A stretch of 37,423 nucleotides of DNA, taken from NCBI GenBank assembly GCA_902547755.1, contig CACCPA010000014.1, positions 1-37,423 on the forward strand, written 5' to 3'. The notes under the pieces were generated by a model that worked only from the letters and a program-made list of their open reading frames with translations, made no database searches and was not told where the DNA came from. The stretch comes from Halieaceae bacterium (GTDB lineage: Bacteria > Pseudomonadota > Gammaproteobacteria > Pseudomonadales > Halieaceae). Below, in pieces: positions 5,457-37,423 of this stretch; positions within the stretch are counted from its first letter, which is position 1, and each line of letters starts with the position of its first letter. Both the position numbers and the translations under genes were made by a program.

Positions 5457-6719
5457 ATGTTCTTTGAACTCCACAGTGGTGGCGAATGCGCTGTGCTCGT
5501 CCAAATTGCTATTGACGGTGGTGCCAACGAACCCGACCTTGGAGAGTTTATTGAGCTGGTCAGATCTGCCGGCGGTGATCCTGCGGCTGTTGTGCGGGGC
5601 TCGCGCCGTTCGCCCACGGCTAAATACTTTGTTGGGGAAGGCAAGCTTGAAGAAATCGCATCGGAAGTCTCACGAGTAGAGGCTGAGCTCGTGGTCTTCA
5701 ACCACGCGTTGTCACCCAGTCAGGAACGCAACCTTGAAGCCTATTTAAAGTGTCGAGTGATTGCCCGGACAGGTCTTATTCTCGACATTTTTGCTCAGCG
5801 CGCTCGAACGCACGAGGGCAAGTTGCAGGTCGAACTGGCGCAGCTAAAACACATTAGCACTCGCTTGATACGGGGTTGGACTCACCTTGAGCGACAAAAG
5901 GGCGGTATTGGGCTTCGAGGGCCCGGTGAAACGCAGCTAGAGACCGACCGACGATTGCTGCGCGCTCGCGTGAGTACGATTGAGTCGCGGTTGGATAAAG
6001 TGCGGCAACAGCGCGCGCAGAATCGGCGGGCGCGACAGAGAGCTGAGGTGCCGTTGGTCTCGTTGGTTGGTTATACCAATGCTGGCAAATCTACGTTATT
6101 TAATACTTGGTCTGAGTCTGGTGTGTATGCCGCCGATCAGCTGTTTGCAACGTTGGATCCAACCTTGGCACGAGTTGAGATCGAGGGTTTGGGTGGGGTC
6201 ATTATTGCGGACACCGTTGGGTTTATTGCTGACCTTCCCCATACCTTGGTGCAAGCTTTTCGGGCAACGCTTGAGGAGACACTCAATGCTTCATTGCTTA
6301 TTCATGTCATTGACGTCGCCGCAGATGATCGCGAGTTCATAAAAACGGAGGTAGAGCTGGTTCTCGATGAGATTGGCGCCGGGGACATACCTCATTTAAT
6401 CGTTTTCAATAAAATCGATCTCTTGGAGCGCGAGCCGCGCATGACGCGAGATAGTGAGGGTCGACCTGATTCGGTGTCTGTCTCTGCAAAGACAGGCGCG
6501 GGGCTCGATCTGTTAAGAGATGCAATAGGCGAGCGACTTGCGGGCAACTTCTTTAAGGGGTGCGTCAAGTTAACACCCGCCCACGGAAAGCTGCGCGCGG
6601 CGCTGTATGCTATGGGTGCAGTAAAGTCCGAGGATTGGCTGGAGGCAGGTGGCAGTGAGCTTGACATCCATCTGCCTGAATCTGATTGGACGCGTTTGAA
6701 GCGTCAGCACGGTTTTTGA
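5457..6719 (+). CDS. hflX: Ribosome-associated GTPase HflX
   Basis: HflX is a GTPase that splits stalled or hibernating ribosomes under stress. The 420-aa protein has the N-terminal HflX domain, the linker signature RGPGETQLETDRR, then the G domain with G1 GYTNAGKST (205-213), G3 DTVGFI and G4 NKID. A short C-terminal domain ends in LKRQHGF. It starts 44 nt after hfq and is followed by hflK. Start ATG 5457 gives a normal-length N-terminus. Confidence 0.96.
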   Translation: MFFELHSGGECAVLVQIAIDGGANEPDLGEFIELVRSAGGDPAAVVRGSRRSPTAKYFVGEGKLEEIASEVSRVEAELVVFNHALSPSQERNLEAYLKCRVIARTGLILDIFAQRARTHEGKLQVELAQLKHISTRLIRGWTHLERQKGGIGLRGPGETQLETDRRLLRARVSTIESRLDKVRQQRAQNRRARQRAEVPLVSLVGYTNAGKSTLFNTWSESGVYAADQLFATLDPTLARVEIEGLGGVIIADTVGFIADLPHTLVQAFRATLEETLNASLLIHVIDVAADDREFIKTEVELVLDEIGAGDIPHLIVFNKIDLLEREPRMTRDSEGRPDSVSVSAKTGAGLDLLRDAIGERLAGNFFKGCVKLTPAHGKLRAALYAMGAVKSEDWLEAGGSELDIHLPESDWTRLKRQHGF

Positions 6720-6794
6720 CTTTAGTAAGGCTGATGCCCCCCTAACGTAGCAGGTTTTGTTAGACTATCGTTGTTAACTATCGAGGAAGAAGAT

Positions 6795-7952
6795 ATGTCA
6801 TGGAATGAGCCCGGTGGCGGTAAAGGCCCGCGCGATCCTTGGGGCGGTAAGGATCAGGGTCCACCCGATCTCGACGAGGCACTTCGTAAATTGCAGAATC
6901 AGCTGAATGGCTTGTTCGGTGGTCGGTCTGGCGGCAGGAGTGGCAAGAGTGGTCGCGGTGCTGCAGGCCTATTGGGCATTGCAGCCATTGTGGCGATTAC
7001 GGTTTGGGGTCTGCTGGGTCTTACGCAGATCGGTGAACAAGAGCGTGCTGTCGTGCTTCGCCTCGGTGAATACGATAGGACTGCTCAACCGGGACTATTC
7101 TGGTATCCGCGAGGTATCGACACGCTGACCCGCGTCAACATTACTCAGGTGCGATCAGCACAGTTCCGCGAGACGATGTTGACGCAAGATGAGAACATTG
7201 TAGATGTCAGTATGTCGGTCCAGTACGTGATCAATGATCCAATAAATTTTGTCCTCGAGGTGCGTGACCCCGAGCGTTCACTTCAGCACGCCGCACAAAG
7301 TGCCCTTCGCCATGTGGTCGGTGAAAGCACTATGGGCTTGGTCTTGACCGAAGGCCGAGCCGAGATTGCGGTCAAGGTTCGTGAGCGCCTGCAGCAGTAT
7401 CTGGTTGCCTACACCACGGGCATCAATGTGCAGAAAGTGAACATCGATGATGCCAGTCCACCTTCGCAGGTGCAGGAAGCGTTCGATGACGTGATCAAGG
7501 CGCGAGAGGACGAAGAGCGCGTTAAAAACGAGGCGGAGTCTTATGCGAACGGCATTGTGCCTGAGGCCCGAGGTCGTGCGCAGCGAATCAAAGAGGAGGC
7601 GGAAGCCTACCGCCAGCAAGTGATTGCAAAAGCAACGGGTGAGGCGCAGCGCTTTGATCAGCTTCTCGCAGAGTATGAAAAAGCACCAGAGGTGACTCGC
7701 GAACGTCTTTACATCGATGCACTGGAATCCGTATTGGCCAATACGAGCAAGGTGATGGTCGACGTTGAGGGAGGTAATAACATGATGTATTTGCCACTCG
7801 ATAAGTTGGCACCGGCCGGAGGCAACAATGCCATGCCGGGCAATGTTATGAGTCGCGGTCTGACGTCTCAACAGCTCCGGGAGGTCACGGATGCGGTGAC
7901 TGAACAGCTCAGAAGAGACTTAGGAAGTCGTAACACTCGGGGAGGTCGTTAA
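6795..7952 (+). CDS. hflK: FtsH protease modulator HflK
   Basis: HflK is an SPFH/prohibitin-family inner-membrane protein that, with HflC, cages and modulates the FtsH protease. The start is ATG 6795, because GAGGAAG precedes it and the protein then begins MSWNEPGGGKGPRDPWGG, the usual Gly/Pro-rich HflK leader. One membrane segment (about residues 58-77) is followed by the SPFH domain and a charged coiled-coil with many Glu/Arg/Ala residues. A Gly/Asn-rich tail ends in RNTRGGR. The stop is two bases from the hflC ATG. Confidence 0.96.
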   Translation: MSWNEPGGGKGPRDPWGGKDQGPPDLDEALRKLQNQLNGLFGGRSGGRSGKSGRGAAGLLGIAAIVAITVWGLLGLTQIGEQERAVVLRLGEYDRTAQPGLFWYPRGIDTLTRVNITQVRSAQFRETMLTQDENIVDVSMSVQYVINDPINFVLEVRDPERSLQHAAQSALRHVVGESTMGLVLTEGRAEIAVKVRERLQQYLVAYTTGINVQKVNIDDASPPSQVQEAFDDVIKAREDEERVKNEAESYANGIVPEARGRAQRIKEEAEAYRQQVIAKATGEAQRFDQLLAEYEKAPEVTRERLYIDALESVLANTSKVMVDVEGGNNMMYLPLDKLAPAGGNNAMPGNVMSRGLTSQQLREVTDAVTEQLRRDLGSRNTRGGR

Positions 7953-8920: not shown

Positions 8921-11375
<2,455 letters not shown>

Positions 11376-11376
<1 letters not shown>

Positions 11377-12173
11377 TGTTCACATTGACGAAAATACTCT
11401 CGCTTTTCGTCTACCCACTATCTCTCGGGTTGTTCTTTGTCGGCTTATCGCTGTGGGGTCAGTTGCGCGGAAATCGAGCCGCTGCGGGCCTTTACACCTT
11501 TCTGGCGCTCGGTGTTATCTTCGTCCCATCGACTCAGTTTGGTGTCGATACGTTTGCAACACCGCTTGAAGCACGCTACCCCGCCTTTGCGCCCGAAGAG
11601 CTCCCTAATGGTGACGTCATTGTTGTATTGGGCGGCGGCGTCGAGGCCGACGGAAAGTTTGGGCGGTGGGGCGATCTTAACGAGGCAGGTGATCGGGTGC
11701 TGATGGGCGCGGAGCTATGGCAGGCAAAAAAAGCACCGCGTTTGATTGTCAGCGGTGGCAGTACACAAGGCCCCATTTCGGAGGCGTCTCGGATGCGTGA
11801 CCTACTGGTCCGGCTTGGTGTCTCGCCGTCAGTGATCACACTCGAGGAAGACAGCCTGACTACCCAAGGTAATGCCGAGGAGGTCGCCAAGCTGGAAGGG
11901 GGTCGTAACCAGCATGTGTTGTTGGTCACATCCTCTTTGCACATGCGGCGTGCGGTTGCCTTATTCAGTGCGCAGGGGTTTAAAGTTACTGCAGCGCCGA
12001 CTGATCACCGAGTTCATCGATACCCACATGCCATCCCCGGTTGGATGCCCACCGTTGAGCACCTTTCGACCACCACAGCGGCTATCCACGAGTGGGTCGG
12101 TTATTGGGTGTACGACCGATTGGGGCGTTTTGACCCCGTTGTCGCTGAAGAACCTTCCTCAGATAAGCAATAA
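11376..12173 (+). CDS. DUF218 / ElyC-YdcF family membrane protein
   Basis: The 265-aa protein has two N-terminal membrane segments (about 8-28 and 37-53) followed by a DUF218 domain. This begins DVIVVLGGGVEADG, continues with a PRLIVSGG block and TSSLHMRRA, and ends near the C-terminus. In E. coli, ElyC of this family is linked to peptidoglycan and enterobacterial common antigen homeostasis, but the biochemical role here is not known. The ATG overlaps the purA stop, so it is co-translated with purA. Confidence 0.85.
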
Positions 12174-27177: not shown

Positions 27178-27739
27178 TTGGATCAAATCCGAGGCAAATG
27201 CGACGGTCGCGACATTAATTATGTTTTGGCTGACGAGAAGTGCTACTGTGAAGCTTCAGTCTTAACCAAGTGGTGTGGTAAAACAATGATGCACTCAGAG
27301 CTTGGGTACAGATTGCTCAGGGCCGAACAGGTCAGTCTCGAAAAGCAAATCATTTGGTCATTGTCGCGTTGGCGCGTTTACGGTGATAGAGATGATTTCA
27401 AAAGAGGCATGACCGGTTTAGATCAATTGGGACTGCTAAAGTCACTTGATGCCATGCGTGACGACCGCTCGTTTTTTTGATTCCACCACTGCCGGCCAAC
27501 GAACGCAAGTACCTTATATTGGTCGCAACAGGCGCGCAGCTGGAATAGTCCTCTTGTCGTTCATGGCGCGATACTCACGATGGCAACGAGGGTTTTTGAT
27601 AGGTCTTGAGTTTGGTGCCCAGGAGAGGATTCAGAGATTTCTAGAAGCCTTATTTTTACTCAATAGAATCAATACTCTAGCGCATCTAAGCAAGCAATTC
27701 TATCAGGAAAACTATCAAGTAATAGGGCGGGGTAGGTGA
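27178..27739 (+). pseudogene. Possible gene split by a +1 frameshift at a T7 run
   Basis: One frame (27178-27480, TTG start, 100 aa) stops with TTTTTTTGA. The next frame then reads on coherently to 27739 with FFDSTTAGQRTQVPYIGRN, LLSFMARYSRWQRGF and an amphipathic end. With six T instead of seven (27472-27478) they would form one protein of about 190 aa. No family was recognised and the first frame has no clear ribosome-binding site. A 35-codon frame at 27158-27265 competes with its start. The stretch may be a decayed gene. Confidence 0.4.
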
Positions 27740-27802
27740 CCATAGCCCCTCCCGTATATGTATACATGTGGGTTCAGAAGTTGAGGAGGCTTTGGGTGTC
27801 TA

Positions 27803-28474
27803 CTACTTTTCTATTTCGAATTCGCTACTTGGTAACTGCGCTTCAGTCAAAACTTCAATGTAGTTGCCCTGTTCTGAGACTCTGTATCCGCCGCTGTAAA
27901 GGCCTGTACCACTCGTTAAGACCTGCTCACCATTAATTTCTGCAGTTGTTGCTACAGGCGTTTCATCGATCCATGGACCCTCGCGTTTACCTTCTACCAT
28001 CAGTCCCTGTGTCACAAGTTCATATGGGTGAGTCTTGCGATATGCTCGATATTGGCCGTTAAGTATTCCACCCTCGTAATTTTGGGACAGGTATAAGATC
28101 CCATCATCGAAATATTCTTCGAGTCCCTCCTTGATACCATTCTTGAAATTTGTCTTTCGGGTCAACTGGCCATTCTCCAGAAAGGCTTTTTCTTCTCCGT
28201 GCTTCCTGCCATTTTTGAATTCTGTCTCGTAAATCCAAACTTCAATTTCCTGGCGAAGCACTCCATTGAGAGGTTCGTCAGTGGCTTGATCAAAAACCAC
28301 ATCACCCCTTGTTAGAGTAGGACCATTGTAAATGGCGGTTGTGCTGTCGCATGAGGACAGAAGCCCGGTGATTACAAACAAAGACGCGAAAAAATATTTG
28401 AGCCTGCGGGATCTTTTTGATTCCGCCCAAAAACTCTGCCCCCAGAAATTGATTTCTGATGGTTTCTCAGTCAT
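27803..28474 (-). CDS. MORN-repeat (YwqK-like) lipoprotein
   Basis: The 223-aa protein has an unusually long N-region (about 26 residues, basic KRSRRLK), a hydrophobic core and the lipobox LLSSC at C42, so it is a predicted lipoprotein. About residues 60-170 hold MORN-variant strands of the toxin_YwqK antitoxin-like kind: FKNGRKHGEEKAF, FKNGIKEGLEEYF, YEGGILNGQYRAY and VEGKREGPWID. ATG 28474 overlaps the stop of the upstream gene (ATGACTGA), so the pair is translationally coupled. The YwqK family name derives from a proposed antitoxin; no toxin partner of that kind is obvious, so the role stays open. Confidence 0.72.
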   Translation of the reverse strand: MTEKPSEINFWGQSFWAESKRSRRLKYFFASLFVITGLLSSCDSTTAIYNGPTLTRGDVVFDQATDEPLNGVLRQEIEVWIYETEFKNGRKHGEEKAFLENGQLTRKTNFKNGIKEGLEEYFDDGILYLSQNYEGGILNGQYRAYRKTHPYELVTQGLMVEGKREGPWIDETPVATTAEINGEQVLTSGTGLYSGGYRVSEQGNYIEVLTEAQLPSSEFEIEK

Positions 28475-28802
28475 CGACAATTTCATATCCGCCAAATTGA
28501 TCTACCAGAGTGAAATGCACAAACCATTTCGCACAGCTACTCATCAACGTATCAATGCCATCGTCACCATCATGGAAATCTAGTGCAGTTTCCCATGCCT
28601 CTTGATGCCGTATTTCTTCACTAAAACGACAACTCAGAGCAACTTGCCACTGGTCTTTGGGATTCTCGTAAACAGCGGCTGACCAGTCATCGATAAAGTC
28701 GATTAGTTGGTCTTCATCCATCAGTTGGTTGGCATCGGCTAGTTCTTTGATGGCTTCTGAGAATCGTGCGATGTTTTTGTCGGCTTCGTCGTAAAGGTCC
28801 AT
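28467..28802 (-). CDS. Acidic cytosolic protein coupled to the MORN lipoprotein
   Basis: A 111-aa protein rich in Asp and Glu, helical in look, with ALSCRFSEEIRHQEAWETALDF (in blocks) in the centre. No family recognised and no export signal. Its ATG is one base after the stop of the 26-aa micro-ORF at 28804-28884, and its stop overlaps the next start. The order is therefore K+ channel, micropeptide, this protein, lipoprotein as one probable transcript. Confidence 0.6.
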   Translation of the reverse strand: MDLYDEADKNIARFSEAIKELADANQLMDEDQLIDFIDDWSAAVYENPKDQWQVALSCRFSEEIRHQEAWETALDFHDGDDGIDTLMSSCAKWFVHFTLVDQFGGYEIVDD

Positions 28803-28803
28803 G

Positions 28804-28884
28804 TCAGTTCATCTCACACAACTTGGTTAATCTGCGCTCCAGCTGCTGCTCCTGAGCTTCAGTTTTGATTCTTTTGCTCGGCAT
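28804..28884 (-). CDS. 26-aa micropeptide, LERRLTxLC type
   Basis: The short frame starts at ATG 28884 inside the end of the K+ channel gene (another frame) and ends with TGA one base before the next ATG. The peptide runs MPSKRIKTEAQEQQ then LERRLTKLCEMN. It is basic at the N-terminus, amphipathic, and ends Cys plus three residues. A related peptide lies at 31091-31150. Comparing the two, several codons differ only synonymously (both Arg, both Leu, Thr) and the rest conservatively, which points to selection on the peptide. Function unknown. Confidence 0.5.
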   Translation of the reverse strand: MPSKRIKTEAQEQQLERRLTKLCEMN

Positions 28885-29590
28885 TGATTTTTCGCGCTTC
28901 CGACAGTGCTGATGAAACTATACCTGCTGGAACTGCGACCAGTCCTAGCCCAACAAATAAGATGATGGTAGTGAAGAACCTGCCTCCTGCAGTTATGGGG
29001 TACATGTCGCCGTAACCGACAGTTGTGAGCGTTACGATCGCCCACCATAAGCTGTCTGGTATTGAGGAGAATAAGTCCGGCTGCGCCTCATTTTCAAAAT
29101 GATAAATACCAACTCCAGCCAGATAAATAACGACCATAGAGGCAGCTACGAAGAGTGCTAATTCTGCCTTGGCAAGATCAAAGGCAACATCAATTCGTCT
29201 AATAGCTTCGTTAAAGCGAACCAGTTTTAGGACTCTTAGTATCCGTAGCAATCGAACTGCTCTGAGTGATCGCAGATCTAGTCCAGTAGAGATATAAAAC
29301 GGTGCTATTGCTGCAAGATCGATTAGGCCGTAGAAGCTGAAGATATATTTGGTTGGTTTTTCTGCGACCCAAATCCTTAGGACATATTCGACGGTGAATA
29401 TAGCGATACACGTAAGCTCGATAATCTTTAAAGTGAATATTTGATCGTTATTGAGATTGGGAAGTGTCTCAAGCGCATAGGATGTTAGAGATAAAATGAT
29501 CAGCGATTGAATGACGGTATCAAACGCTCTTCCGCTTTTTGTCTCAGTTGTCTCAACGGTTGCGCGGAATAAGGCTCGGAGATTGGACAT
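28859..29590 (-). CDS. Voltage-gated potassium channel-like ion transporter
   Basis: The 243-aa inner-membrane protein has the Kv/KvAP plan: S1 (about 25-42), S2 (50-72), S3 (83-100), S4 with spaced arginines R107-R125 (LRAVRLLRILRVLKLVR), S5 (about 140-163), a pore helix with the selectivity filter TTVGYGD (189-195), and S6 (205-230). The filter predicts K+ selectivity. There is no cytosolic RCK domain. The gene is divergent from the PD-(D/E)XK-like gene and heads the minus-strand transcript towards the lipoprotein. Confidence 0.9.
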   Translation of the reverse strand: MSNLRALFRATVETTETKSGRAFDTVIQSLIILSLTSYALETLPNLNNDQIFTLKIIELTCIAIFTVEYVLRIWVAEKPTKYIFSFYGLIDLAAIAPFYISTGLDLRSLRAVRLLRILRVLKLVRFNEAIRRIDVAFDLAKAELALFVAASMVVIYLAGVGIYHFENEAQPDLFSSIPDSLWWAIVTLTTVGYGDMYPITAGGRFFTTIILFVGLGLVAVPAGIVSSALSEARKINAEQKNQN

Positions 29591-29641
29591 GCGAGTCTGA
29601 CTACGTTAAAAAATTTAGAATCATCCCTACGAGACTATAGA
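29591..29641. other. Divergent spacer of K+ channel and nuclease-like genes
   Basis: A 51-bp AT-rich spacer that should contain two divergent promoters. TTAAAAAATTT and GACTATAG are suggestive but no complete -35/-10 pair was confirmed. Confidence 0.25.
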
Positions 29642-31048
29642 GTGGATATAAAAAAGCTAGAAAAGAATATGGTTAATGGGTCAGCGGCAAGATTGTTTCC
29701 GGTGTTGGCTGACTCGAAAAAAGAAGAAAAAGCGACCAGCATTCTGCTATCTATCTTCACAGTTGTTCCCGACTACGCTAAAGCGGTGCTTGAAGAGGTT
29801 GGTGCGCCTGTAGGAAAGCGAGCGAAAATTGAATGCTTCACGGAGGTCTCTTTTAAGGGGTCTAACGAGAAAAGTCGTCCTGACGGACTCATAATTGTTA
29901 CAAACGGAAGCAAGAAATGGGCTGCGTTAGTTGAGTCCAAAGTGGGTCGTTCAGACTTAACGCAGGAGCAGGTAGAAACGTATTTAGATATAGCAAAGGA
30001 GCAAGGGTTTGATGCGGTTATAACGATCAGCAACCAATTCGCTCAGTTATCAACTCATCATCCACTGCCCATCTCGAAAGTGAAGACTCGAAGCGTAAGC
30101 CTTTTCCACTTTTCGTGGCTTTCACTAACCAGTAAGGCTCTCCTCCTAACCAGCAGTAAAGCTGTGAGTGATGTTGAGCAATCCTTCATGCTTAAAGAGA
30201 TGATTCGGTATCTGCAAGATGACTCATCTGGTGTTGTAAGCCAGTTTAAGTTGGGAAAGGATTGGAAGGAGGTATGTACAGCAGTTCATCAGAAGGTTCG
30301 ATTAACGAAATCATCGAGTGAAGTCGTGGGTGCGGTTTCAAATTGGTTTCAAACGCTGCGTTATTTAAGCATCCAGTTAAGTCTTGCGGTTGGCAAACCT
30401 TGCTCTGTTAGGTTGAGTAAGAAGCATAAGGATGACGGCCAGCAGCGTCTAAGCGAATCTATTTCAAGCTTAATAGACAACCCAATTCTTACAGGGGAGT
30501 TTGAGGTTCCAAATGCCGCCAATAATTTGGTCCTCGAATTAGATTTCTTGAGAAAGTCACTGCAATGCAGTGTTGAAATAAAGTGTCCGAAAGACGTAAA
30601 GCAAGCAAGGGCCGCTATTAATTTTGTGGTTAATCAGCTAAAAAGCTACGACGGCGATGATCTTGAGGTAACTGTTAACTATCCCGGGCGAATTCAAGAT
30701 TTAAGCGCTAACATCCGAACAGCGCTTGACGAAGATGGGAGAAAGCTTCTTCTACACGACCACACTAAGGAGCTTCCCGTATCAGTGATTATTTGGCGCG
30801 ATCATGACCTTGGTACTCAAGCCCTTAAAAGCCCCTCTTTGCCTCAAACCATTGATCAGGTTTTACAAAGCTTCTACGACGATGTTGTCGAGGAGCTGAG
30901 AGCTTGGCAGCCAAAAGCCCCAAGGATTCGTCGCTCTAAAAAGTTGGACGATGAGGATAGACCTCAAATAACCTCGGGTAGTAATGTTGAGGCAGATACT
31001 GCCACAAGCATCTCAGGCCTCACGTTCTTGAAAGCCCTCAAGCGTTAA
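29642..31048 (+). CDS. PD-(D/E)XK nuclease-like protein
   Basis: A 468-aa protein from a GTG start. In the N-terminal third, P80-D81 (SRPDGLII) and E98-S-K100 (LVESKVG) are spaced as in PD-(D/E)XK nucleases. The helix and strand after them (LTQEQVETYLDIAKEQGFDAVITISN) also resemble that core; E68 could be an extra ligand. The rest (about 200-440) is of unknown fold, and the C-terminus is basic then acidic (PRIRRSKKLDDEDRP). Such standalone nuclease-like proteins are frequent in defence-rich regions, but no partner methylase or helicase is here. Codon use looks AT-richer than in the core block. Confidence 0.65.
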   Translation: MDIKKLEKNMVNGSAARLFPVLADSKKEEKATSILLSIFTVVPDYAKAVLEEVGAPVGKRAKIECFTEVSFKGSNEKSRPDGLIIVTNGSKKWAALVESKVGRSDLTQEQVETYLDIAKEQGFDAVITISNQFAQLSTHHPLPISKVKTRSVSLFHFSWLSLTSKALLLTSSKAVSDVEQSFMLKEMIRYLQDDSSGVVSQFKLGKDWKEVCTAVHQKVRLTKSSSEVVGAVSNWFQTLRYLSIQLSLAVGKPCSVRLSKKHKDDGQQRLSESISSLIDNPILTGEFEVPNAANNLVLELDFLRKSLQCSVEIKCPKDVKQARAAINFVVNQLKSYDGDDLEVTVNYPGRIQDLSANIRTALDEDGRKLLLHDHTKELPVSVIIWRDHDLGTQALKSPSLPQTIDQVLQSFYDDVVEELRAWQPKAPRIRRSKKLDDEDRPQITSGSNVEADTATSISGLTFLKALKR

Positions 31049-31090
31049 CCCTTGCAGATTGATCGATAGCGCTAAGAGCATTTTATTTCT

Positions 31091-31150
31091 TCAATCCACC
31101 TGACATAAATTAGTAAGCCTCCTCTCCAGCTGCTGCTGACCTGCTGTCAT
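31091..31150 (-). CDS. 19-aa micropeptide, LERRLTxLC type (second copy)
   Basis: ATG 31150 to TGA 31091-31093 encodes MTAGQQQLERRLTNLCQVD. It shares the QQLERRLT-x-LC core with the 26-aa peptide at 28804-28884 and likewise ends Cys plus three residues ([EQ][MV][ND]). It is in frame with the DUF805-like gene, whose stop is 21 bases upstream, so it might also be a readthrough tail. No clear ribosome-binding site is seen. Confidence 0.42.
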   Translation of the reverse strand: MTAGQQQLERRLTNLCQVD

Positions 31151-31171
31151 GCGTTCACGATAGGCAGGGAC

Positions 31172-31606
31172 TCAGTTAGATTGTCTCGCCATGTCGATGG
31201 CCGCTCTCGCAATCGCAACTAGTATAATGAAGGAGATGTAAACGGCTGCGGCGAGCGCAACCCAAAATTTTTGGCGAGAGGTGAAATCACTTTCACCTTC
31301 TGCTTTTAAAAGTCCGAGTCGCACCAGCACCACGAAATTTATGAGTGGCGTCATAAGTCCAATCAACCACAAGACACCACTCCAGAACCCTCGCCCAATG
31401 TTTCTGAGTCGTCCTATCAGGATGAAGAGGTTGTATAAGGGAAGTGCTACAGCCATATTTAAAAATATTAGTGTCAACGACTCTGGAGCATTGGTAAAGA
31501 ACGGTAAGAAACCAAAGAAAATAATGGTTAAAAATAGGCACATTGACGCCATTACGTGCTTCCAATAGTCCACTCTGGAAATATTTGGTCTTAACCAATC
31601 GCGCAT
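31172..31606 (-). CDS. DUF805-like membrane protein
   Basis: The 144-aa protein has about four membrane helices. ISRVDYW near the start and RLRNIGRGFWSGVLWLIGL match the conserved SRxxYW and RLxDIGRSGW elements of DUF805. The family has no assigned function. It is the last sizeable gene of the leftward operon, 19 bp after the preceding membrane gene. Confidence 0.7.
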   Translation of the reverse strand: MRDWLRPNISRVDYWKHVMASMCLFLTIIFFGFLPFFTNAPESLTLIFLNMAVALPLYNLFILIGRLRNIGRGFWSGVLWLIGLMTPLINFVVLVRLGLLKAEGESDFTSRQKFWVALAAAVYISFIILVAIARAAIDMARQSN

Positions 31607-31625
31607 GCTTGCCCACCCTATCTAT

Positions 31626-31982
31626 TTAAATCAGTGCTAAAACAAACCATACGAGACTAACTACTCCTGACAAGAAGCCCATGCAACCGATTCCTGCGGC
31701 ATCGCCAGCTTCTAAACCCGGATAGCCGTTTCCTGCCTTTCCAGAAATTGATTCCTTCCAAACCCAGATTATTGAGGTCGGGAAGAAAAGCAGAGGTAAC
31801 AGCCACCAAACCTGGAACCAAAGAGCGAGCAAGAAGAAAAGGATAAGGATCTTTTCTGAGATCCAGAGTTGTCTCCAAGTGTCTGCATCTGCTCCCTCAG
31901 GATCGAAGTAGTTGTCCTCATAGAAAACAGCTGGCTCAACTTTTCTGATCAACCGTCGGTAAACTCCTTTGTCCTCACTCAT
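31626..31982 (-). CDS. Small membrane protein of the DUF763 operon
   Basis: A 118-aa protein. A polar, charged N-terminus (about 45 residues) is followed by two hydrophobic stretches (about 46-75, with several Trp, and 98-118 at the very C-terminus) around a Gly-rich loop. Unrecognised. ATG 31982 overlaps the upstream stop (ATGAGTGA), supporting that start over a Met three codons earlier. Confidence 0.68.
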   Translation of the reverse strand: MSEDKGVYRRLIRKVEPAVFYEDNYFDPEGADADTWRQLWISEKILILFFLLALWFQVWWLLPLLFFPTSIIWVWKESISGKAGNGYPGLEAGDAAGIGCMGFLSGVVSLVWFVLALI

Positions 31983-32217
31983 CTGAGTCACCTCTCAGGC
32001 GTTGCTCTCGATCATACTCATCACACATCTCCTCGAAAATCCTATTTGATCGAGCTTTTTTCCTGTCCTCCGCCGTCACTATGAACACCATCCCTATTAA
32101 TAGCATAGCCACAACAATGCCTACTGGTAGTAAGAAATGGATACTCCACAGAAAACTCCACCCCTGAACCACTAGGTATAGGCATAGAAGGGAAGTCATA
32201 TAGCTCAATACTTTCAT
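31975..32217 (-). CDS. Small two-helix membrane protein of the DUF763 operon
   Basis: An 80-aa protein with two hydrophobic segments (about 5-24 and 29-48) and a highly charged cytosolic-type tail (TAEDRKKARSNRIF, EYDREQRLRGDSDE). Its ATG overlaps the radical SAM stop as ATGA, and its stop overlaps the next start. Unrecognised. Confidence 0.7.
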   Translation of the reverse strand: MKVLSYMTSLLCLYLVVQGWSFLWSIHFLLPVGIVVAMLLIGMVFIVTAEDRKKARSNRIFEEMCDEYDREQRLRGDSDE

Positions 32218-32990
32218 ACCGCCTTTCTCCAGCTCCCGAGCCGTTTGGCTCGTGTTGGTTTCAGTCCGTGTTTCTCGAGCCTCTCCTGCACCTTGGGAAA
32301 GAGAGTGATGCTCTCGACCTCGAGCGACTTCAAGATGCCATGATGCACCTTGGAGAGATTCTTCTTCACGTCTTCGATGCCTTCATCCGACGAAAACGAC
32401 GCCATGATGCAGGCATTGCAGCTCACACCCGCATCTATAAGATTTCTCATGGCCTCATAAGGTAGCCAGTAGCTATCAGGTCGTGCACCCGTCAGATCGA
32501 AATACTCGTCAGGTGTGGCTCCCTTTATCGAAACTCTGACATGCAGGCGCTTGTATTTTGCTAGCTGCTGACAGTACGCAGGATCAGCACCCAGAGTCAT
32601 ACCATTGGTCTCTAGGATGTAGATGAATTCACTCTGCTCAACAAGGTCCAGCAGCTCAAATAGGTGTTCTCTACCGATAGTCCCTTCTGAGGCTGATGCT
32701 GAGATCAGCTTGTGACCGTACTTTCGAGCATTCTTCGCAAGACCATCGAACACCTGTTGAGGACTGTAAAGTTTCCCAGTCTTCTTGGGTTTCCATACTG
32801 GCTTGTCAGAAAAACAGAATTTGCAGCGCAGGTTGCACCCGACCTCTGTGGCACTCGTAGTGCCCCCATAGAACCGCAGCGACCTACCTAGTTGGACGTA
32901 CTTCCGGCGGTTACCGTCCACGACCACTTTTTCAGTGGCCGCAGACAGTTCGAGCGGACAGTACCCTTTATCGCTCGCTACCTTTTCCAT
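32214..32990 (-). CDS. Radical SAM protein, partner of DUF763 gene
   Basis: A 258-aa radical SAM core. GCNLRCKFC supplies the [4Fe-4S] motif C52-x3-C56-x2-C59, followed by FSDKPVW. Later blocks include ISASASEGTIGREH (SAM-binding type), FIYILETNGMTLG, LHVRVSIKGATPDEYF and GVSCNACIM. There is no SPASM or other C-terminal Fe-S domain. From memory these blocks resemble uncharacterised archaeal MoaA/PflA-like proteins more than bacterial peptide-modifying enzymes. The ATG lies inside the end of the DUF763 gene (23-nt overlap), so the two are tightly coupled. The substrate is unknown; small neighbouring peptides are candidates. Confidence 0.85.
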   Translation of the reverse strand: MEKVASDKGYCPLELSAATEKVVVDGNRRKYVQLGRSLRFYGGTTSATEVGCNLRCKFCFSDKPVWKPKKTGKLYSPQQVFDGLAKNARKYGHKLISASASEGTIGREHLFELLDLVEQSEFIYILETNGMTLGADPAYCQQLAKYKRLHVRVSIKGATPDEYFDLTGARPDSYWLPYEAMRNLIDAGVSCNACIMASFSSDEGIEDVKKNLSKVHHGILKSLEVESITLFPKVQERLEKHGLKPTRAKRLGSWRKAV

Positions 32991-34206
32991 AGAGGACTCC
33001 GTTCTGAGTATCCATCAGTTTTCGTGTGACACCTTTCACGACGCTGCCTAGGAATGTCTTCCCTCCATTCGTCTCAGCGTGATTCCACTCGTGGTCGATG
33101 AGGTCATTAAGGAAGTCGAGAGGAATGCCCTTCGATTCACCCTGTTTCGCGACCTTGTGTAGGCGTTTGAGTGCATCGGACTTGTCCTTATCACCGAGCT
33201 TCGCCTTGTCCACGCTGTCCTGCAGCATGCCGATCATCTCGTCCATAGATTCAGTATCGACTGGGTGTGGACGACCGTCCTTTCCACCGACTGCGAAGGC
33301 GAATCTGGCAGGGTCATCGAATCTGGTAGCGTCACCGTGGATGACCTCGCTGGCCATGGCTAGAGCCTTAAGTGTTCTGGGGCCGACGCCCTGCAGATCT
33401 ACCAGATCCTCGAACTTCTCAATGTCTCGGTTGTAGGCCAGATCTAGCACTGAGCCTAGACGAGCAAGGTTCACGTCCTCTTTTCTCACATCGTGACGAT
33501 TAGGTAGCTCAGCTTCTCTGATGGCTTCCTGTACATGCTTCGGCTTCTCTTTTGTGAGAGACACCATGTTCGATCTGAGCATGTCAGCCTGAGGGTCAGT
33601 TAGATTCAGTATCTGCTGCTTCTCTAGACCTGCGATTCCTGTATGTGGAGCGTCTCCGAACGAGCGAACTGTAGGGCTGTGCCAGTGGTAGCGACGTGCT
33701 CGGCGGTTGGACTTGTTCATACCTTGAGATATGGCTGTCCACTCACCTTCGTCAGACAGTAGGAAGTACTGCTGATAGAGATCGAAGCCGTCCTGTACCG
33801 CGTTGTTGTCGATACGGCGAGTGAGTCGAGCTGATTTCGCGAGGTCAGTACCTGGTAGTCCATGACGATCTGATACGCGATCGATCTGGCGGTTCGTGTA
33901 CTGCATCTGCTTCCCTTTTCCGCCGAGGATATACAGGCCGAGATCACTGGCCTTGCGATTGATGTGAGGCTTTAGTGACCCCATCACCACAGCGGTGACA
34001 CCTGATGAGTTCCAGTGCATGCCCATCAAAGCACCTAGCGCCTGGAACCAGTTCGGATCTGACATGCGAGTCAGCACCTCTGAGTTACCGTAGTTGTGAA
34101 CGATGGACTCGACGACGGCATCACCGACTCTGCCCATACGCTCTGTTAGAAATTTGGGAACTGCACCGAAGTGGAGCGGCATCCCGATTGCACCTGAACT
34201 GATCAT
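32968..34206 (-). CDS. DUF763 family protein with helix-hairpin-helix element
   Basis: DUF763 (COG1415) is an uncharacterised family known mainly from archaea and thermophilic bacteria. The 412-aa protein shows its hallmarks: GMPLHFGAVPKFLTERM (8-24), SDPNWFQALGALMGMHWNSSGVT (49-71), LGGKGKQ, and a C-terminal half with RRYHWHSPT and FAFAVGGKDGRPHPVD. LVDLQGVGPRTLKALAMASE (268-287) looks like a helix-hairpin-helix, suggesting nucleic-acid binding. ATG 34206 is chosen because CAGGAGAACGCAAC precedes it; the frame is open to a GTG at 34278. It overlaps the radical SAM gene and follows ImmA by 140 bp. Confidence 0.85.
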   Translation of the reverse strand: MISSGAIGMPLHFGAVPKFLTERMGRVGDAVVESIVHNYGNSEVLTRMSDPNWFQALGALMGMHWNSSGVTAVVMGSLKPHINRKASDLGLYILGGKGKQMQYTNRQIDRVSDRHGLPGTDLAKSARLTRRIDNNAVQDGFDLYQQYFLLSDEGEWTAISQGMNKSNRRARRYHWHSPTVRSFGDAPHTGIAGLEKQQILNLTDPQADMLRSNMVSLTKEKPKHVQEAIREAELPNRHDVRKEDVNLARLGSVLDLAYNRDIEKFEDLVDLQGVGPRTLKALAMASEVIHGDATRFDDPARFAFAVGGKDGRPHPVDTESMDEMIGMLQDSVDKAKLGDKDKSDALKRLHKVAKQGESKGIPLDFLNDLIDHEWNHAETNGGKTFLGSVVKGVTRKLMDTQNGVLYGKGSER

Positions 34207-34346
34207 GTTGCGTTCTCCTGTGTCGTTGCTCTGTGTTTTCACTGGGTATGTCGAGCGGTCATCCCAGAATTTGGGCACGACGAACCCCCTGATGCTGAGT
34301 TCGCACCATAGAAAAGCGTCTGACGTGGGTTTAAGTCGCTAGACGG
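34207..34346 (-). promoter_or_regulatory. ImmA-DUF763 spacer, possible internal promoter
   Basis: This is the only large gap in the leftward operon. Reading leftward it has an AT-richer stretch (CTTTTCTATGGTG) that could be a weak -10, and ends with a strong GGAG ribosome-binding site for the DUF763 gene. No terminator hairpin seen, so readthrough from the XRE promoter is plausible. Confidence 0.3.
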
Positions 34347-35060
34347 TTACTTCATGCGACGCCTGTATCGCGTGAGCAGCCGCCAGAGAATCCCTCTGAA
34401 CGTGGGTCTCGCTCTCCGTGAGAAGTCGTGGGACGTGCCACGCTGGTAGGAAGCTTCCGATAGGTATCCCAGGTCGATGAGCCTGTTGACCATTGCAGTA
34501 TTCGAGACGTTTCCCATCGAGCCTGCTCGCGTCACAGCGGCTGCGTAGCCCCTAACAGCTCTGGGAGTCTTGAGTTTGCTAGGTCTCGGTACAGCGGACA
34601 CTGCGTCTGATACCGCCTGTTGAGGCATGAGAAGTGCAGCTGCGAATCTATCTGCCTGCTGCTCTATAAGCGGCTTGTCACTCGTGTCTCTGCACAGAAT
34701 ATTGCTGGCGTTCTCAGCCGATGCCTCTAGATACACCTCTCGATGCAGCACGTGATGCCCTATCTCGTGAGCGATGGTGAAGTTATACCGCCCCTCATTG
34801 CTCTCTACTGAGGCGTTCACTTGAATCACGTTGTTCGCGAAGATGATTCCGCCTAGATAATCAGGGTCAGCAAATAGCCCCTCATCCGAAATCTCTATCT
34901 CGTAGCCGAGAAAGTGCTCAGCGATAGCTTCCACAGGTATAGGAGTACCCACGGAGCTACCTGAGAACTCTGAGTAGTCAGACAGGAGCTGCGTCGCAGA
35001 CGCCTCTATATGCTCGTCAGACAGCTCAGGGAACTCTATGAAAAAGGTATTAGACGTCAT
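34347..35060 (-). CDS. ImmA/IrrE-family metallopeptidase
   Basis: A 237-aa predicted zinc peptidase. HEIGH at 98-102 is the HExxH motif and E133 in EQQADRFAAALLMP is the third ligand. The C-terminal basic tail (RRARPTFRG, RYRRRMK) is unlike many ImmA proteins. In ICEBs1 (ImmR/ImmA) and Deinococcus (DdrO/IrrE) such peptidases cleave the adjacent XRE repressor upon DNA damage, and an XRE gene lies just upstream here. ATG 35060 overlaps the 45-aa membrane gene; a TTG at 35087 is an alternative. Confidence 0.88.
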   Translation of the reverse strand: MTSNTFFIEFPELSDEHIEASATQLLSDYSEFSGSSVGTPIPVEAIAEHFLGYEIEISDEGLFADPDYLGGIIFANNVIQVNASVESNEGRYNFTIAHEIGHHVLHREVYLEASAENASNILCRDTSDKPLIEQQADRFAAALLMPQQAVSDAVSAVPRPSKLKTPRAVRGYAAAVTRAGSMGNVSNTAMVNRLIDLGYLSEASYQRGTSHDFSRRARPTFRGILWRLLTRYRRRMK

Positions 35061-35187
35061 ACTTAGATGCCGATACGACCATGCCAATGCATGCTATAGC
35101 TACGATGGGTATGAAAAGCGGCCAGATGATTGCGCCCATCAGAACAACTGGGATCAGACACAGCCCTTCCAAGATTTTAGCCTTCAC
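35050..35187 (-). CDS. 45-aa membrane microprotein between XRE and ImmA
   Basis: GTG 35187 overlaps the XRE stop (GTGA), and the frame ends 11 nt inside the ImmA gene. The peptide starts MKAKILEGLC and has a long hydrophobic core (about 8-38, LIPVVLMGAIIWPLFIPIVA then IACIGMVV) before SASKYDV. The overlaps at both ends make it very likely to be translated. It could anchor or sense at the membrane to control ImmA, but that is speculation. Confidence 0.65.
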   Translation of the reverse strand: MKAKILEGLCLIPVVLMGAIIWPLFIPIVAIACIGMVVSASKYDV

Positions 35188-35546
35188 TTTTCTGACTCCC
35201 CTGACATCTTCTCGACCTGCTTCTGCAACTCAGCCCATTGCTCAGGCGTGAGGTTTTTCGCTGATCGCAGGAACGCAGGGACGGCGAAAGGGTTGTTCTG
35301 GATCACGTTCACAGCCTCTGGATCCACTAGGTCTGCTAGATGCAGCAGTTCATCCACATCGGTCTCTAGTGCAGCCGCTAGTTTCCTCACTAGTTCTGCC
35401 GAGGGTGCAGATTTGCCTTTCTCTAGATTGGATATATGCATACCTGACACACCCACCATGCGGCCCAATTCCCTTATACCTATGCGCTTTTCAGCTCTTA
35501 GATCCTTGATTTTGTCTGCGAGAGTCGTCGCTTGATCAGAGGTCAT
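35184..35546 (-). CDS. XRE-family HTH transcriptional regulator
   Basis: The 120-aa protein has an XRE helix-turn-helix at about residues 10-66 (IKDLRAEKRIGIRELGRMVG, SGMHISNLEKGKSAPSAELV, KLAAALETDVDELL). A C-terminal part of about 45 residues (FAVPAFLRSAKNLTPEQW) may be the dimerisation or peptidase-sensitive region. GGAG lies seven bases before ATG 35546. It is the first gene of the leftward unit and next to the 42-bp palindrome, so it is probably autoregulatory and represses both directions. Confidence 0.9.
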   Translation of the reverse strand: MTSDQATTLADKIKDLRAEKRIGIRELGRMVGVSGMHISNLEKGKSAPSAELVRKLAAALETDVDELLHLADLVDPEAVNVIQNNPFAVPAFLRSAKNLTPEQWAELQKQVEKMSGESEK

Positions 35547-35587
35547 GTGAGTTCTCCATGTCTGCCCTATGTAACACCATGAGACAA

Positions 35588-35631
35588 ACTGTAAGCTGCC
35601 TGTTTACATATGTCAACTGTTAGTTTACAGT
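35588..35631. promoter_or_regulatory. Overlapping divergent promoters on a 42-bp palindromic operator
   Basis: Leftward promoter (minus strand): -35 TTGACA (plus positions 35611-35616), 17-bp spacer, -10 TACAGT (35588-35593). Rightward promoter: -35 TTTACA (35603-35608), 17-bp spacer, -10 TACAGT (35626-35631). The central GTTTACAT|ATGTCAAC (35602-35617) covers both -35s. Outer half-sites CTGTAAGC (35589-35596) and GTTTACAG (35623-35630) lie symmetrically, each 17 bp from the dyad at 35609/35610. Over 35589-35630, 16 of 21 base pairs mirror. One XRE dimer array could therefore shut both promoters. Confidence 0.75.
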
Positions 35632-35660
35632 GTACATATTGATTACTTGGAGATACAGAA

Positions 35661-35813
35661 ATGAAGTTGAGCTTCACCCGAGACAACCTATTCAAAAGCG
35701 TGAACCTAGCAACAGGGCTGATGGTCCTGGTCCTGCTACCAATACTCATCCCGACACTCGGCTACATGATGTTGAAAGCTGGCATCAATGCCTTCAGATC
35801 AGAAGAGTTCTAG
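35661..35813 (+). CDS. 50-aa membrane microprotein (first of rightward quartet)
   Basis: ATG 35661, with GGAG eight bases upstream, about 23 nt after the predicted start point. The peptide has a basic/polar start (MKLSFTRDNLFKSVN), one hydrophobic segment (about 16-37, ATGLMVLVLLPILIPTLGYM) and a polar end FRSEEF. Unrecognised. Its stop is followed by GGAGG for the next gene. Confidence 0.65.
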   Translation: MKLSFTRDNLFKSVNLATGLMVLVLLPILIPTLGYMMLKAGINAFRSEEF

Positions 35814-35822
35814 GAGGTAGAT

Positions 35823-35978
35823 ATGTGGGGATTTTTTTCAGGTATTGCGGTTGGCGTATTTGTCTTGGTCTTCCTATTCATTGGATTTTTGATGGTCGCA
35901 TTTGGTGGTTTCAGCGTTGAGGACACGATGCCGTCACAGGAAGACTACAACTGTGGTGTTGATGAGGCACAAAGCTGA
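35823..35978 (+). CDS. 51-aa membrane microprotein (second of quartet)
   Basis: TAGGAGG immediately upstream gives a strong start at ATG 35823. One hydrophobic segment (about 3-30, FFSGIAVGVFVLVFLFIGFL) is followed by an acidic tail with SVEDTMPSQEDYNCGVDEA, containing a single Cys. The stop overlaps the next ATG (TGATG). Confidence 0.65.
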   Translation: MWGFFSGIAVGVFVLVFLFIGFLMVAFGGFSVEDTMPSQEDYNCGVDEAQS

Positions 35979-36103
35979 TGGAGCTACTCGTCTGGATATT
36001 GATTGCAGCGTTGGTGGTCTGGTTTGTTCTTATTCCAGCCTTGGCACTATGGATAGCGGTTCATGTACTTGGAGAGGAAGAGGGTAATGATGGCAATACT
36101 TGA
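35978..36103 (+). CDS. 41-aa membrane microprotein (third of quartet)
   Basis: ATG 35978 overlaps the previous stop. MELLVWILIAALVVWFVLIP and ALALWIAV form a nearly continuous hydrophobic helix, followed by an acidic end (LGEEEGNDGNT). It overlaps the next gene by 14 nt. Unrecognised. Confidence 0.6.
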   Translation: MELLVWILIAALVVWFVLIPALALWIAVHVLGEEEGNDGNT

Positions 36104-36245
36104 GATGGCACTCTGGATTATCGCGACACCAATACTGTTGTTTTTCGGCCTTTCTGGGCTGGGTTTCATTCTGGGGCTAATTTCGGATCCGTACTATGGG
36201 ATCAAGGATCTTCAGGGTGGGCAAAGAAAGAAACGGGTGATCTGA
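36090..36245 (+). CDS. 51-aa membrane microprotein (fourth of quartet)
   Basis: ATG 36090 (or 36087) has GAGGG upstream. One hydrophobic segment (about 5-33, EMALWIIATPILLFFGLSGL then GFILGL) is followed by ISDPYYGIKDLQGG and a basic end (QRKKRVI). Its orientation looks opposite to the acidic-tailed members. Unrecognised. Confidence 0.6.
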   Translation: MAILEMALWIIATPILLFFGLSGLGFILGLISDPYYGIKDLQGGQRKKRVI

Positions 36246-36343
36246 ATCCATGAATAGCGTCTGTTTTGTCTAGATACTCATGGCATGTCTGTACCAATCG
36301 GCTGCACAAGTGTTGCAATGACGGTCTATAAAGGAGATGGCAA
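36246..36343 (+). promoter_or_regulatory. Spacer before the secreted-protein gene
   Basis: 98 bp without a gene. AAGGAG (36331-36336) lies eight bases before TTG 36344 and decides that start. No clear promoter or terminator was found. Confidence 0.35.
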
Positions 36344-36871
36344 TTGCGAAAATTATTTATATCTTTACTGACTATGTTTACCGGCGCTTTAGCAGTTGCT
36401 GATGATGATCTGCCGCCAGTCATGGAGATGTTCTTTAATGGTATGGAGCGTCACGAGATCTCAATGATTGCAACAGCTGCAACTCGCTGCGGGAGCTTGA
36501 ATATGGTCGTAGGCGGTATCATTGCTCGCGATACATCTGACACCAATGTCTCTGATTCGCTAACAGAGCTGGGCACAGGTTTGGTGACCATCGGCTTATA
36601 CACGAACGCTGCATTGATGAAGTTGCGAGGAGTGGAAGTTGATATGGCCTCGCTTCAGAAAAGAGCGCTGAACTCACAGGACATGTTCACAAAAATTTAC
36701 CTGGAGCGTATGGAGAAAAATCAAGCTAGAACTGGGGAGATGTTTGCTGGCGATGAACTTATCAAATCAGATTTGGAGTTCTGTAAGTCCCTCACTATTC
36801 TCACATCTGATGAGTGGCTTGAGACGCTAACAACAAATAATTGGGACTATTGGGACGAAATCTTCCAATAA
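36344..36871 (+). CDS. Secreted protein of unknown function
   Basis: A 175-aa precursor from TTG 36344. The signal peptide (about 1-19, RKLFISLLTMFTGALAVA) is followed by an acidic mature start (DDDLPPVMEMF). The mature part is helical, with two cysteines (TRCGSL and EFCKSL) that may pair, and an aromatic, acidic end (NNWDYWDEIFQ). No family recognised. Confidence 0.65.
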   Translation: MRKLFISLLTMFTGALAVADDDLPPVMEMFFNGMERHEISMIATAATRCGSLNMVVGGIIARDTSDTNVSDSLTELGTGLVTIGLYTNAALMKLRGVEVDMASLQKRALNSQDMFTKIYLERMEKNQARTGEMFAGDELIKSDLEFCKSLTILTSDEWLETLTTNNWDYWDEIFQ

Positions 36872-36960
36872 CGGGCGGCAAACGGATGAACGCTACTTAG
36901 TGGTTGGTTCACTAAGCTTCTAAGAAGAGCGATCATTTTCACTCAAAAGTCAAAAATCTG

Positions 36961-37242
36961 TTGTCAATCTCAAAACCGTCAGCTAACGATAAAAAGAGAA
37001 AAGCCGACGAGGACACGCCATTGACTGCTCAGATTTCACTGTTGCCTTATGCAAACGAAAAGGTCGCTGCTAAGGTGTTAGAACATGCTCAAGACTTGAA
37101 GGACACGGATCCGAAACAGTCAATAGAACTACATGAAGAAGTGATTCGCTTGTTGTGTACGCAGATCAAACAACGCAATAAGAAGATAAGGGTCTTGAAG
37201 AAGATCTTGTTGGATGCATTACCGGAAGGAGAAGGTGCTTAA
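36961..37242 (+). CDS. Small charged protein, probably cytosolic
   Basis: 93 aa from TTG 36961, without a clear ribosome-binding site, so the true start may be later. The N-terminus is Lys/Ser-rich (KPSANDKKRKADED) and the C-terminal half is a charged helix (EVIRLLCTQIKQRNKKIRVLKK in two blocks), possibly coiled-coil. The stop overlaps the next ATG. Confidence 0.5.
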   Translation: MSISKPSANDKKRKADEDTPLTAQISLLPYANEKVAAKVLEHAQDLKDTDPKQSIELHEEVIRLLCTQIKQRNKKIRVLKKILLDALPEGEGA

Positions 37243-37358
37243 TGGATCGTCAAAGAATTTTAGAGATGGCCGTTGGAGTCTTTCTTGGTAACGTGGCTTT
37301 CTTGATGTTTGCTTGGATTTTGTTTGCTCTTTTGAGTCGGATTTTTGGGTGGGATTAG
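37242..37358 (+). CDS. 38-aa single-helix membrane microprotein
   Basis: ATG 37242 overlaps the preceding stop (TAATG). MDRQRILEMAVGVFLGN starts the peptide, VAFLMFAWILFALL completes a membrane helix, and it ends SRIFGWD. The overlap supports translation. Another example of the very small membrane proteins that crowd this end of the window. Confidence 0.55.
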   Translation: MDRQRILEMAVGVFLGNVAFLMFAWILFALLSRIFGWD

Positions 37359-37423
37359 TAACCTGTTTACTGAAGCACTCGCGTTTGGAAGCCGGTTAAA
37401 GTGGTTTTCGTTTTCACTAATAG

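Follow-up and report, generated by a model that had tools for sequence, protein, structure and literature searches.

What does a compact group of genes for an XRE-type repressor, an M78 peptidase, a DUF763 protein and a radical S-adenosylmethionine (radical SAM) enzyme do, and is it a unit at all? The question arises from a contig of a Halieaceae bacterium (CACCPA010000014.1, assembly GCA_902547755.1; the whole stretch of 37,423 nucleotides is referred to as the window). The first-pass annotation, made from the sequence alone, had proposed here a candidate undescribed module of eight leftward genes under XRE/ImmA control plus four divergent membrane microproteins. The conserved core consists of four genes, namely those for the XRE repressor, the M78/ImmA-like peptidase, the DUF763 protein and the radical SAM enzyme. 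This cassette is real, conserved, mobile and, as far as the searches go, undescribed; it is rare, and its hosts are scattered and partly marine. Its new part is an unfamiliar payload, DUF763 plus radical SAM, under a known type of switch.

Conservation and distribution of the core

An alignment-based scan of 84,980 species genomes for the radical SAM protein returned 97 pattern matches and eight relatives; the scan was built on two short patterns and therefore missed relatives differing at those positions. Seven of the eight are orthologues from alpha- and gammaproteobacteria, with 70–77% identity in the best segment. The eighth (L025) is an unrelated radical SAM protein with 33% identity. All seven orthologue loci (L018–L024) carry the XRE, M78, DUF763 and radical SAM genes in identical order and strand; the contig of L024 ends inside the radical SAM gene. 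The hosts are two uncultured gammaproteobacteria, Ca. Thioglobus, the marine strain HTCC2080, whose cassette (L022) comes from the same genus as the window, and three alphaproteobacteria represented by metagenome-assembled genomes. The linkage predicted by the first-pass annotation is thus present in all eight cassette loci, and homologous regions with unlinked, scattered genes, which were looked for, were not seen. The proposed module is real in that its four-gene core recurs in the seven other loci, but its extent had been drawn too wide: the conserved unit is four genes rather than eight plus four, and the whole eight-gene unit was found in the window alone.

The payload proteins are the most similar to those of the window: 68–81% identity for DUF763 (seven other cassettes) and 66–73% for radical SAM (six other cassettes), with 52–68% for XRE and 42–55% for M78. 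In six loci the frames of DUF763 and radical SAM share 20 or 23 bp (23 bp in the window); in L021 and L023 they share 20 or 26 bp, depending on the ATG chosen. That the overlap is conserved speaks for a joint product of the two genes. Purifying selection on the core was shown for the pair L021/L023, with ratios of non-synonymous to synonymous substitutions (dN/dS) of 0.042 for DUF763, 0.055 for radical SAM, 0.13 for M78 and 0.23 for XRE. This was the sole pair close enough for such an estimate; all but one of the other computed pairs were saturated at synonymous sites.

DUF763 is sporadic in the genomes sampled. It was detected in 2 of 97 relatives, in 8 of 274 genomes of the gammaproteobacterial sample (six over the cut-off) and in 8 of 289 genomes from the class of G749, the centre genome being counted each time. 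The radical SAM protein is rarer: at E 1e-20 the only match among 398 genomes of the phylum sample was the window's own genome. Each of the seven orthologue-bearing genomes contains one DUF763 match. Around DUF763 genes of other branches, no radical SAM or M78 profile match was obtained at E 0.01 in any of 11 profiled loci, a set without the truncated contigs L016 and L017 and without the annotated stretches L052–L055; one weak XRE match occurred.

Pattern scans of viral contigs confirmed no DUF763, radical SAM or M78 protein, and tblastn searches revealed neither DUF763 nor radical SAM in phages and no radical SAM in plasmids. Weak relatives of M78 were found in 23 plasmid records, each with less than 60% identity. 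DUF763 is present on 230 plasmid records, 218 of which belong to Rhizobium, Sinorhizobium or Ensifer.

The repressor–peptidase switch and its candidate operator

The first-pass annotation had described the XRE and ImmA-like genes as a derepression switch. This agrees with the PADLOC profiles: all eight M78 members match capP and all eight XRE members match capH, the latter alignment in the window being to positions 3–100 of 103. The HExGHH motif is invariant in the eight M78 proteins. The comparison with Deinococcus made at that time needs adjusting: a PDB search with the M78 profile ranks CapP (7t5t, 7.4e-11) ahead of Deinococcus IrrE (3dte, 7.5e-4). DdrO (6rnz, 2.3e-6) is among the PDB matches of the XRE profile. 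CapP is reportedly governed by a cysteine switch on its active-site zinc. One cysteine is invariant in all eight M78 members and is offset from that of CapP in the PDB profile alignment. According to the excerpts of the literature at hand, CapP is activated by single-stranded DNA, cleaves CapH and governs adjacent immune operons (PMC13373217), and has been likened to Deinococcus PprI (PMC10904395). By analogy, the XRE/M78 pair may act as CapH and CapP do, through activation by single-stranded DNA and cleavage of the repressor. In the other seven loci the XRE and M78 genes are tightly joined, with gaps of -11 to +3 bp, so the 45-aa gene between them in the window is regarded as an insertion.

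A candidate operator of 41–45 bp, consisting of TGTAAACTnnnAGTTGACA and a second dyad, was recognised at all eight cassettes, L020 having the weakest copy. The model was built from six loci. In the window, L018 and L022 the operator precedes the XRE gene; in L019, L020 (weak) and L024 it occupies the gap between M78 and DUF763 and so stands ahead of the payload genes, not of XRE alone. When applied to L021 and L023, the model identified shorter sites 0.4–0.7 kb before XRE, and partial ones were located before XRE in L024. With at most one mismatch, the operator core occurs only at the cassette in seven of the eight whole genomes searched (some of them incomplete), and for this reason no dispersed regulon was seen; the L020 genome has no core at this stringency, and a reversed control pattern gave no match in the eight genomes. 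None of 100 dinucleotide shuffles per locus reached the observed operator match in seven of the eight loci, a test that is partly circular for the six loci that supplied the pattern (the window, L018, L019, L020, L022 and L024).

Inside the window's operator lie promoter-like hexamers for both directions, TTGACA-17-TACAGT leftward and TTTACA-17-TACAGT rightward. Similar divergent pairs are present in L018, L019 and L024, and single ones in L021, L022 and L023; the gap in L020 shows no promoter-like hexamers. The operator of L024 also faces a divergent membrane open reading frame (ORF) of 61 aa. A repressor bound at the single operator of the window would silence both arms, as the first-pass annotation had proposed. 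The operator half-pattern matches 38 viral stretches, in which no cassette gene was detected at E 1e-3; these matches are taken as chance.

Payload proteins, small membrane proteins and insertion site

The DUF763 protein matches PF05559 over its full length with 377 bits against a gathering score of 35.5. A weak helix-hairpin-helix (HhH) signal was detected around residues 265–290 (HHH_5, E 0.042; HHH, E 0.018 in a relative). A PDB sequence search with diverse DUF763 proteins returned chance-level matches only, among them the HhH motif of RuvA (E 0.41). No consistent partner was seen among DUF763 neighbours in other loci. The excerpts of published work name archaea, rhizobia and Xanthomonas as carriers of the family and give no function; the open-licence literature contained no published function for DUF763, no mention of COG1415 and no description of the gene combination, which the first-pass annotation had not recognised either. 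In a Rhodopseudomonas conjugative plasmid (L003, 6450–8320) genes for AlkB and DUF763 abut with a 1-bp overlap, which may connect the wider DUF763 family with repair. A UdgX gene lies about 3 kb from a DUF763 gene on a Sinorhizobium meliloti plasmid.

The three cluster cysteines and C194 are invariant in the seven radical SAM proteins compared. Pfam revealed no SPASM or recognition domain. The structure model reached a predicted local distance difference test (pLDDT) score of 66, and the fold search with it retrieved general radical SAM relatives (BlsE, NifB, SkfB, SuiB) and no subfamily. Spore photoproduct lyase was absent from the Pfam and NCBIfam matches and from the 50 best of 1391 fold matches. 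NCBIfam peptide-maturase models match the radical SAM core far below their cut-offs (ScmF: 5.4e-8, 32.6 bits versus 400). Identity with viperin (pVip) was rejected at 21.2 bits versus a cut-off of 180 in NCBIfam; the PADLOC match has an E value of 3.2e-5.

An ORF check of the window recovered the eight leftward and four divergent frames of the first-pass annotation (Table 1), with the five overlaps it had counted among the seven leftward junctions (35184/35187, 35050/35060, 32968/32990, 32214/32217 and 31975/31991). The two other junctions are the one between M78 and DUF763, which is a gap of 140 bp if DUF763 starts at the ATG common to the eight relatives, and the one between the 121-aa and 144-aa genes (19 bp). 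The domain calls for the four core proteins hold in Pfam; the DUF805 likeness of the 144-aa protein is weak and under the cut-off.

The four divergent ORFs encode hydrophobic proteins of 41–52 aa and pass a loose custom Shine-Dalgarno filter. Small hydrophobic ORFs were also found near the cassette in L021, L022, L023 and L024, those of L024 being divergent from the operator; the scan detected none in L019 and L020 and a marginal 31-aa ORF in L018. The 121-aa protein has a homologue in L005/L022 (36% identity; tblastn 3e-11) and a weak match in L023 (blastp 3.6e-5 with composition adjustment off; no tblastn match at 1e-3). For the 80-aa protein no credible homologue was found in other cassettes, one short match with E 0.006 occurring in L020. 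Runs of short membrane proteins, mostly of 70–85 aa, are located at 6327–7012 and 11699–12717 of L021 and at 4088–5331 of L023; several of their members have a Cys-containing acidic tail and are repeated along these stretches.

The location of the cassette in a variable island, suggested in the first-pass annotation, is borne out by tRNA-bordered sites in the window and L019. Homology of the window with its relatives ends at 27,628/27,629 in five of the six compared and at 27,509 in the sixth (six of seven stretches were used; L094, of 1.7 kb, was left out). The break lies in TGGTGCCCAGGAGAGGA; this is the 3' end of a tRNA-Leu(CAG) gene, of which G016 and G030 have an intact copy at the corresponding position. 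ARAGORN detected no tRNA in the window, and Rfam gave no match; the core TGGTGCCCAGGAGAGGA is single-copy in the window's genome, and the G+C content drops from 53.4% left of the break to 47.4%. Together, the break in synteny, the missing tRNA, the single core and the G+C drop indicate an island of at least 9.8 kb whose right end is unassembled. That end was not found in the assembly, where the only RNase R match is a paralogue with 30% identity. In G045 and G005, different inserts of 1.1 and 6.3 kb separate a copy of the TGGTGCCCAGGAGAGGA core from the tRNA; in G044 the core is present, and the remaining 9.8 kb of the contig contain no tRNA. The tRNA-Leu(CAG) site seems to be a hot spot for insertion in the genus, with different inserts in G005 and G045. 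By eye, this tRNA gene stands beside an RNase R-like gene, and the G005 insert resembles a cytochrome P450-like cluster.

In L019 the cassette is situated between two identical tRNA-Val genes (78-bp identity, 5.93 kb apart). An ORF of 211 aa in this locus resembles part of an integrase by eye and had no Pfam match at E 0.01; ORF reading revealed no transfer genes in the 5.9-kb element, the one element covered in full. Phage integrases (PF00589) are encoded within 4 kb of the cassette in L020 (downstream) and L021 (upstream). Beside the integrase of L020 lies a gene (10793–12031, minus strand) for a repeat protein with diverged tandem units of about 25 aa (RGDREVVL...). The window's island also carries a voltage-gated potassium channel-like gene (28859–29590, minus strand; Ion_trans, 1.6e-38) and, adjoining the cassette, a 468-aa ORF (29642–31048, plus strand) without Pfam or PADLOC match and with the look of a PD-(D/E)XK-type nuclease by eye. 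Genes matching defence profiles occur within 7 kb of three of the eight cassettes, a count for which no background rate was set. In the marine HTCC2080 (L022, 1–3923, minus strand), a DruE-like helicase gene, incomplete in the locus, and a DruF-like gene are located near the cassette and possibly represent a Druantia-type system.

Table 1. Features of the cassette and the island in the window
Feature	Position	Strand	Basis
XRE (HTH_3) repressor, CapH-like	35184..35546	-	HTH_3 1.8e-11; PADLOC capH 8.7e-15, residues 5-116
Membrane microprotein, 45 aa, at the XRE–M78 junction of the window only	35050..35187	-	hydrophobic ORF
M78/ImmA-like zinc peptidase, CapP-like (HEIGHH)	34347..35060 (ATG; 35087 with TTG)	-	PF06114 1e-12; capP 1.2e-22
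DUF763 protein	32968..34206 (ATG shared with relatives; 34278 with GTG)	-	PF05559 8.8e-113
Radical SAM enzyme, CxxxCxxC, 258 aa	32214..32990	-	PF04055 6.1e-14
Small membrane protein, 80 aa	31975..32217	-	hydrophobic segment
Membrane protein, 121 aa, GYPGLE motif	31626..31991	-	36% identity to L005 10116-10538
Membrane protein, 144 aa, weakly DUF805-like	31172..31606	-	17.8 bits vs cut-off 25.7
Candidate operator, two nested dyads enclosing divergent sigma-70-like hexamers	35588..35631		conservation, promoter scan
Divergent membrane microprotein, 50 aa	35661..35813	+	hydrophobic peak 2.32, Shine-Dalgarno-like motif
Divergent membrane microprotein, 51 aa	35823..35978	+	hydrophobic peak 3.02
Divergent membrane microprotein, 41 aa	35978..36103	+	hydrophobic peak 2.85
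Divergent membrane microprotein, 52 aa (60 aa from upstream ATG)	36087..36245	+	hydrophobic peak 2.26
Left island boundary, 3' end of minus-strand tRNA-Leu(CAG)	27613..27629		intact there in two relatives
Visible part of integrated island, right end beyond contig	27613..37423		G+C 47.4% vs 53.4% to left; synteny break

Possible function and comparison with known systems

We consider the chances about even that this is a stress or defence cassette carried on an island and controlled by a CapH/CapP-type switch, with DUF763 and radical SAM acting on nucleic acid. Induction, repressor cleavage and payload function are what we infer here. The XRE protein would sit on the operator and silence the genes facing it. 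Single-stranded DNA, arising from damage or from replicating phage, would activate the M78 peptidase, which would cut the repressor and switch on DUF763, the radical SAM enzyme and the small membrane proteins; these steps are modelled on the CapH/CapP precedent. DUF763, HhH-like and perhaps DNA-binding, may form a complex with the radical SAM enzyme encoded by the overlapping gene and direct radical chemistry to nucleic acid, either disabling invading DNA or reversing lesions, as the HhH-like motif, the context and the constant pairing of the two genes suggest. The variable membrane proteins might be accessory effectors, perhaps growth-stopping. The cassette is thus a candidate undescribed anti-virus or DNA-repair system. 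A more specific version can be offered only tentatively, and we lean against it as a whole: an inducible radical SAM system in which DUF763 would be a DNA-binding guide that docks the enzyme on phage or damaged DNA, with a CapH/CapP-type switch responding to single-stranded DNA and growth-arresting microproteins, and which would move between proteobacterial classes on tRNA-integrating islands.

Several results weigh against the defence or stress cassette. The capP profile was aligned at positions 7–125 of 242, leaving the sensing half unmatched, and because only this N-terminal half matched, CapP-like behaviour of M78 is put forward as an analogy. At 1e-5 the XRE profile retrieved 14 other helix-turn-helix proteins from the PDB, none named CapH. 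The HhH signal of DUF763 is weak (E 0.018–0.042; 0.41 for RuvA), and its structure model failed (pLDDT 37, eight-member alignment). Beyond the switch, PADLOC assigned to the eight leftward genes only the weak viperin match of radical SAM (3.2e-5). Of 100 shuffles, 4 reached the operator match of L020. With five promoter-like sites versus a shuffle mean of 5.0, the region shows no excess, and the case for promoters relies on conservation. Among the neighbours scanned, five of the eight loci have no defence gene.

A DNA-repair cassette, merely carried by islands and induced by damage such as sunlight, with DUF763 recognising lesions and radical SAM reversing them, is possible but rather unlikely. 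Spore photoproduct lyase is a radical SAM enzyme that reverses DNA lesions, and a switch of the DNA-damage type, the plasmid-borne AlkB and UdgX genes near DUF763 and the invariant C194 would all suit such a role; the fold matches, by contrast, are generic (BlsE, NifB, SkfB), photoproduct lyase is missing from the best 50 of 1391 and the model is at pLDDT 66, three cassettes have defence-profile genes nearby, and coupled membrane proteins are hard to account for in repair. These membrane proteins become the effectors, and DUF763–radical SAM a modifier or sensor, if the cassette is an abortive-infection or toxin–antitoxin unit. The shared operator of the two arms in the window and the hydrophobic ORFs near four other cassettes speak for this improbable alternative, but the microproteins are little or not conserved in sequence, unlike DUF763 and radical SAM, and are missing or marginal by scan in L018, L019 and L020.

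Control of a mobile element, with ImmR/ImmA-like regulation of excision and DUF763–radical SAM as maintenance genes, is quite improbable. Integrases lie close to the cassette in L020 and L021 and the L019 element is enclosed by tRNA-Val copies, but the integrase stands on different sides, the L019 element by ORF reading has no room for transfer genes, and in the seven genomes with an operator-core match this is at the cassette only. We see very little likelihood that radical SAM modifies small peptides encoded alongside, as in units for ribosomally synthesised and post-translationally modified peptides. The overlap of its gene with the 80-aa gene, the presence of SkfB and SuiB among the fold matches and the several maturase models matching its core are offset by scores far under the cut-offs and the lack of a SPASM or recognition domain in Pfam; besides, the small proteins span the membrane, show poor conservation and were not detected beside radical SAM in L018–L020.

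The role of DUF763 in the cassette is directly testable, given that its partner is fixed, its switch is of a known type and its operator is defined. If true, the guide reading would for the first time assign a function to DUF763, a family of archaea and rhizobia. In the literature excerpts, the operons named for CapW and for CapH with CapP are CBASS, BREX, Pycsar, DISARM and Bub, and the payload described here is unlike them. We suggest CapH/CapP-type controllers as bait for further unknown systems.

Among known systems, CapH and CapP share with the cassette a repressor gene followed by an M78 peptidase gene upstream of an operon, both profiles matching in all eight loci. The cassette differs in that the capP profile has no match in its C-terminal half and no CapH chain is among the PDB matches. 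In addition, the ten window proteins scanned gave no CBASS, BREX, Pycsar or DISARM match, including no CD-NTase in Pfam and PADLOC. The IrrE(PprI)–DdrO system of Deinococcus likewise combines an M78 peptidase with an XRE repressor, but the cassette's operator core is confined to the cassette in seven of eight genomes and the sensor half is unmatched. ImmR–ImmA of ICEBs1, compared by its description, is also an XRE/ImmA pair on integrative elements; here the integrases had no operator-core match and the L019 element is too small for transfer genes. With viperin, the radical SAM protein shares a single-domain architecture, but scores far under the viperin cut-off. The full-length PF05559 match connects the payload to the DUF763 proteins of archaea and rhizobia, from which the cassette branch is distinct: it is 34–42% identical to the 13 other-branch proteins aligned, and it alone among the profiled loci has radical SAM and M78 genes beside it.

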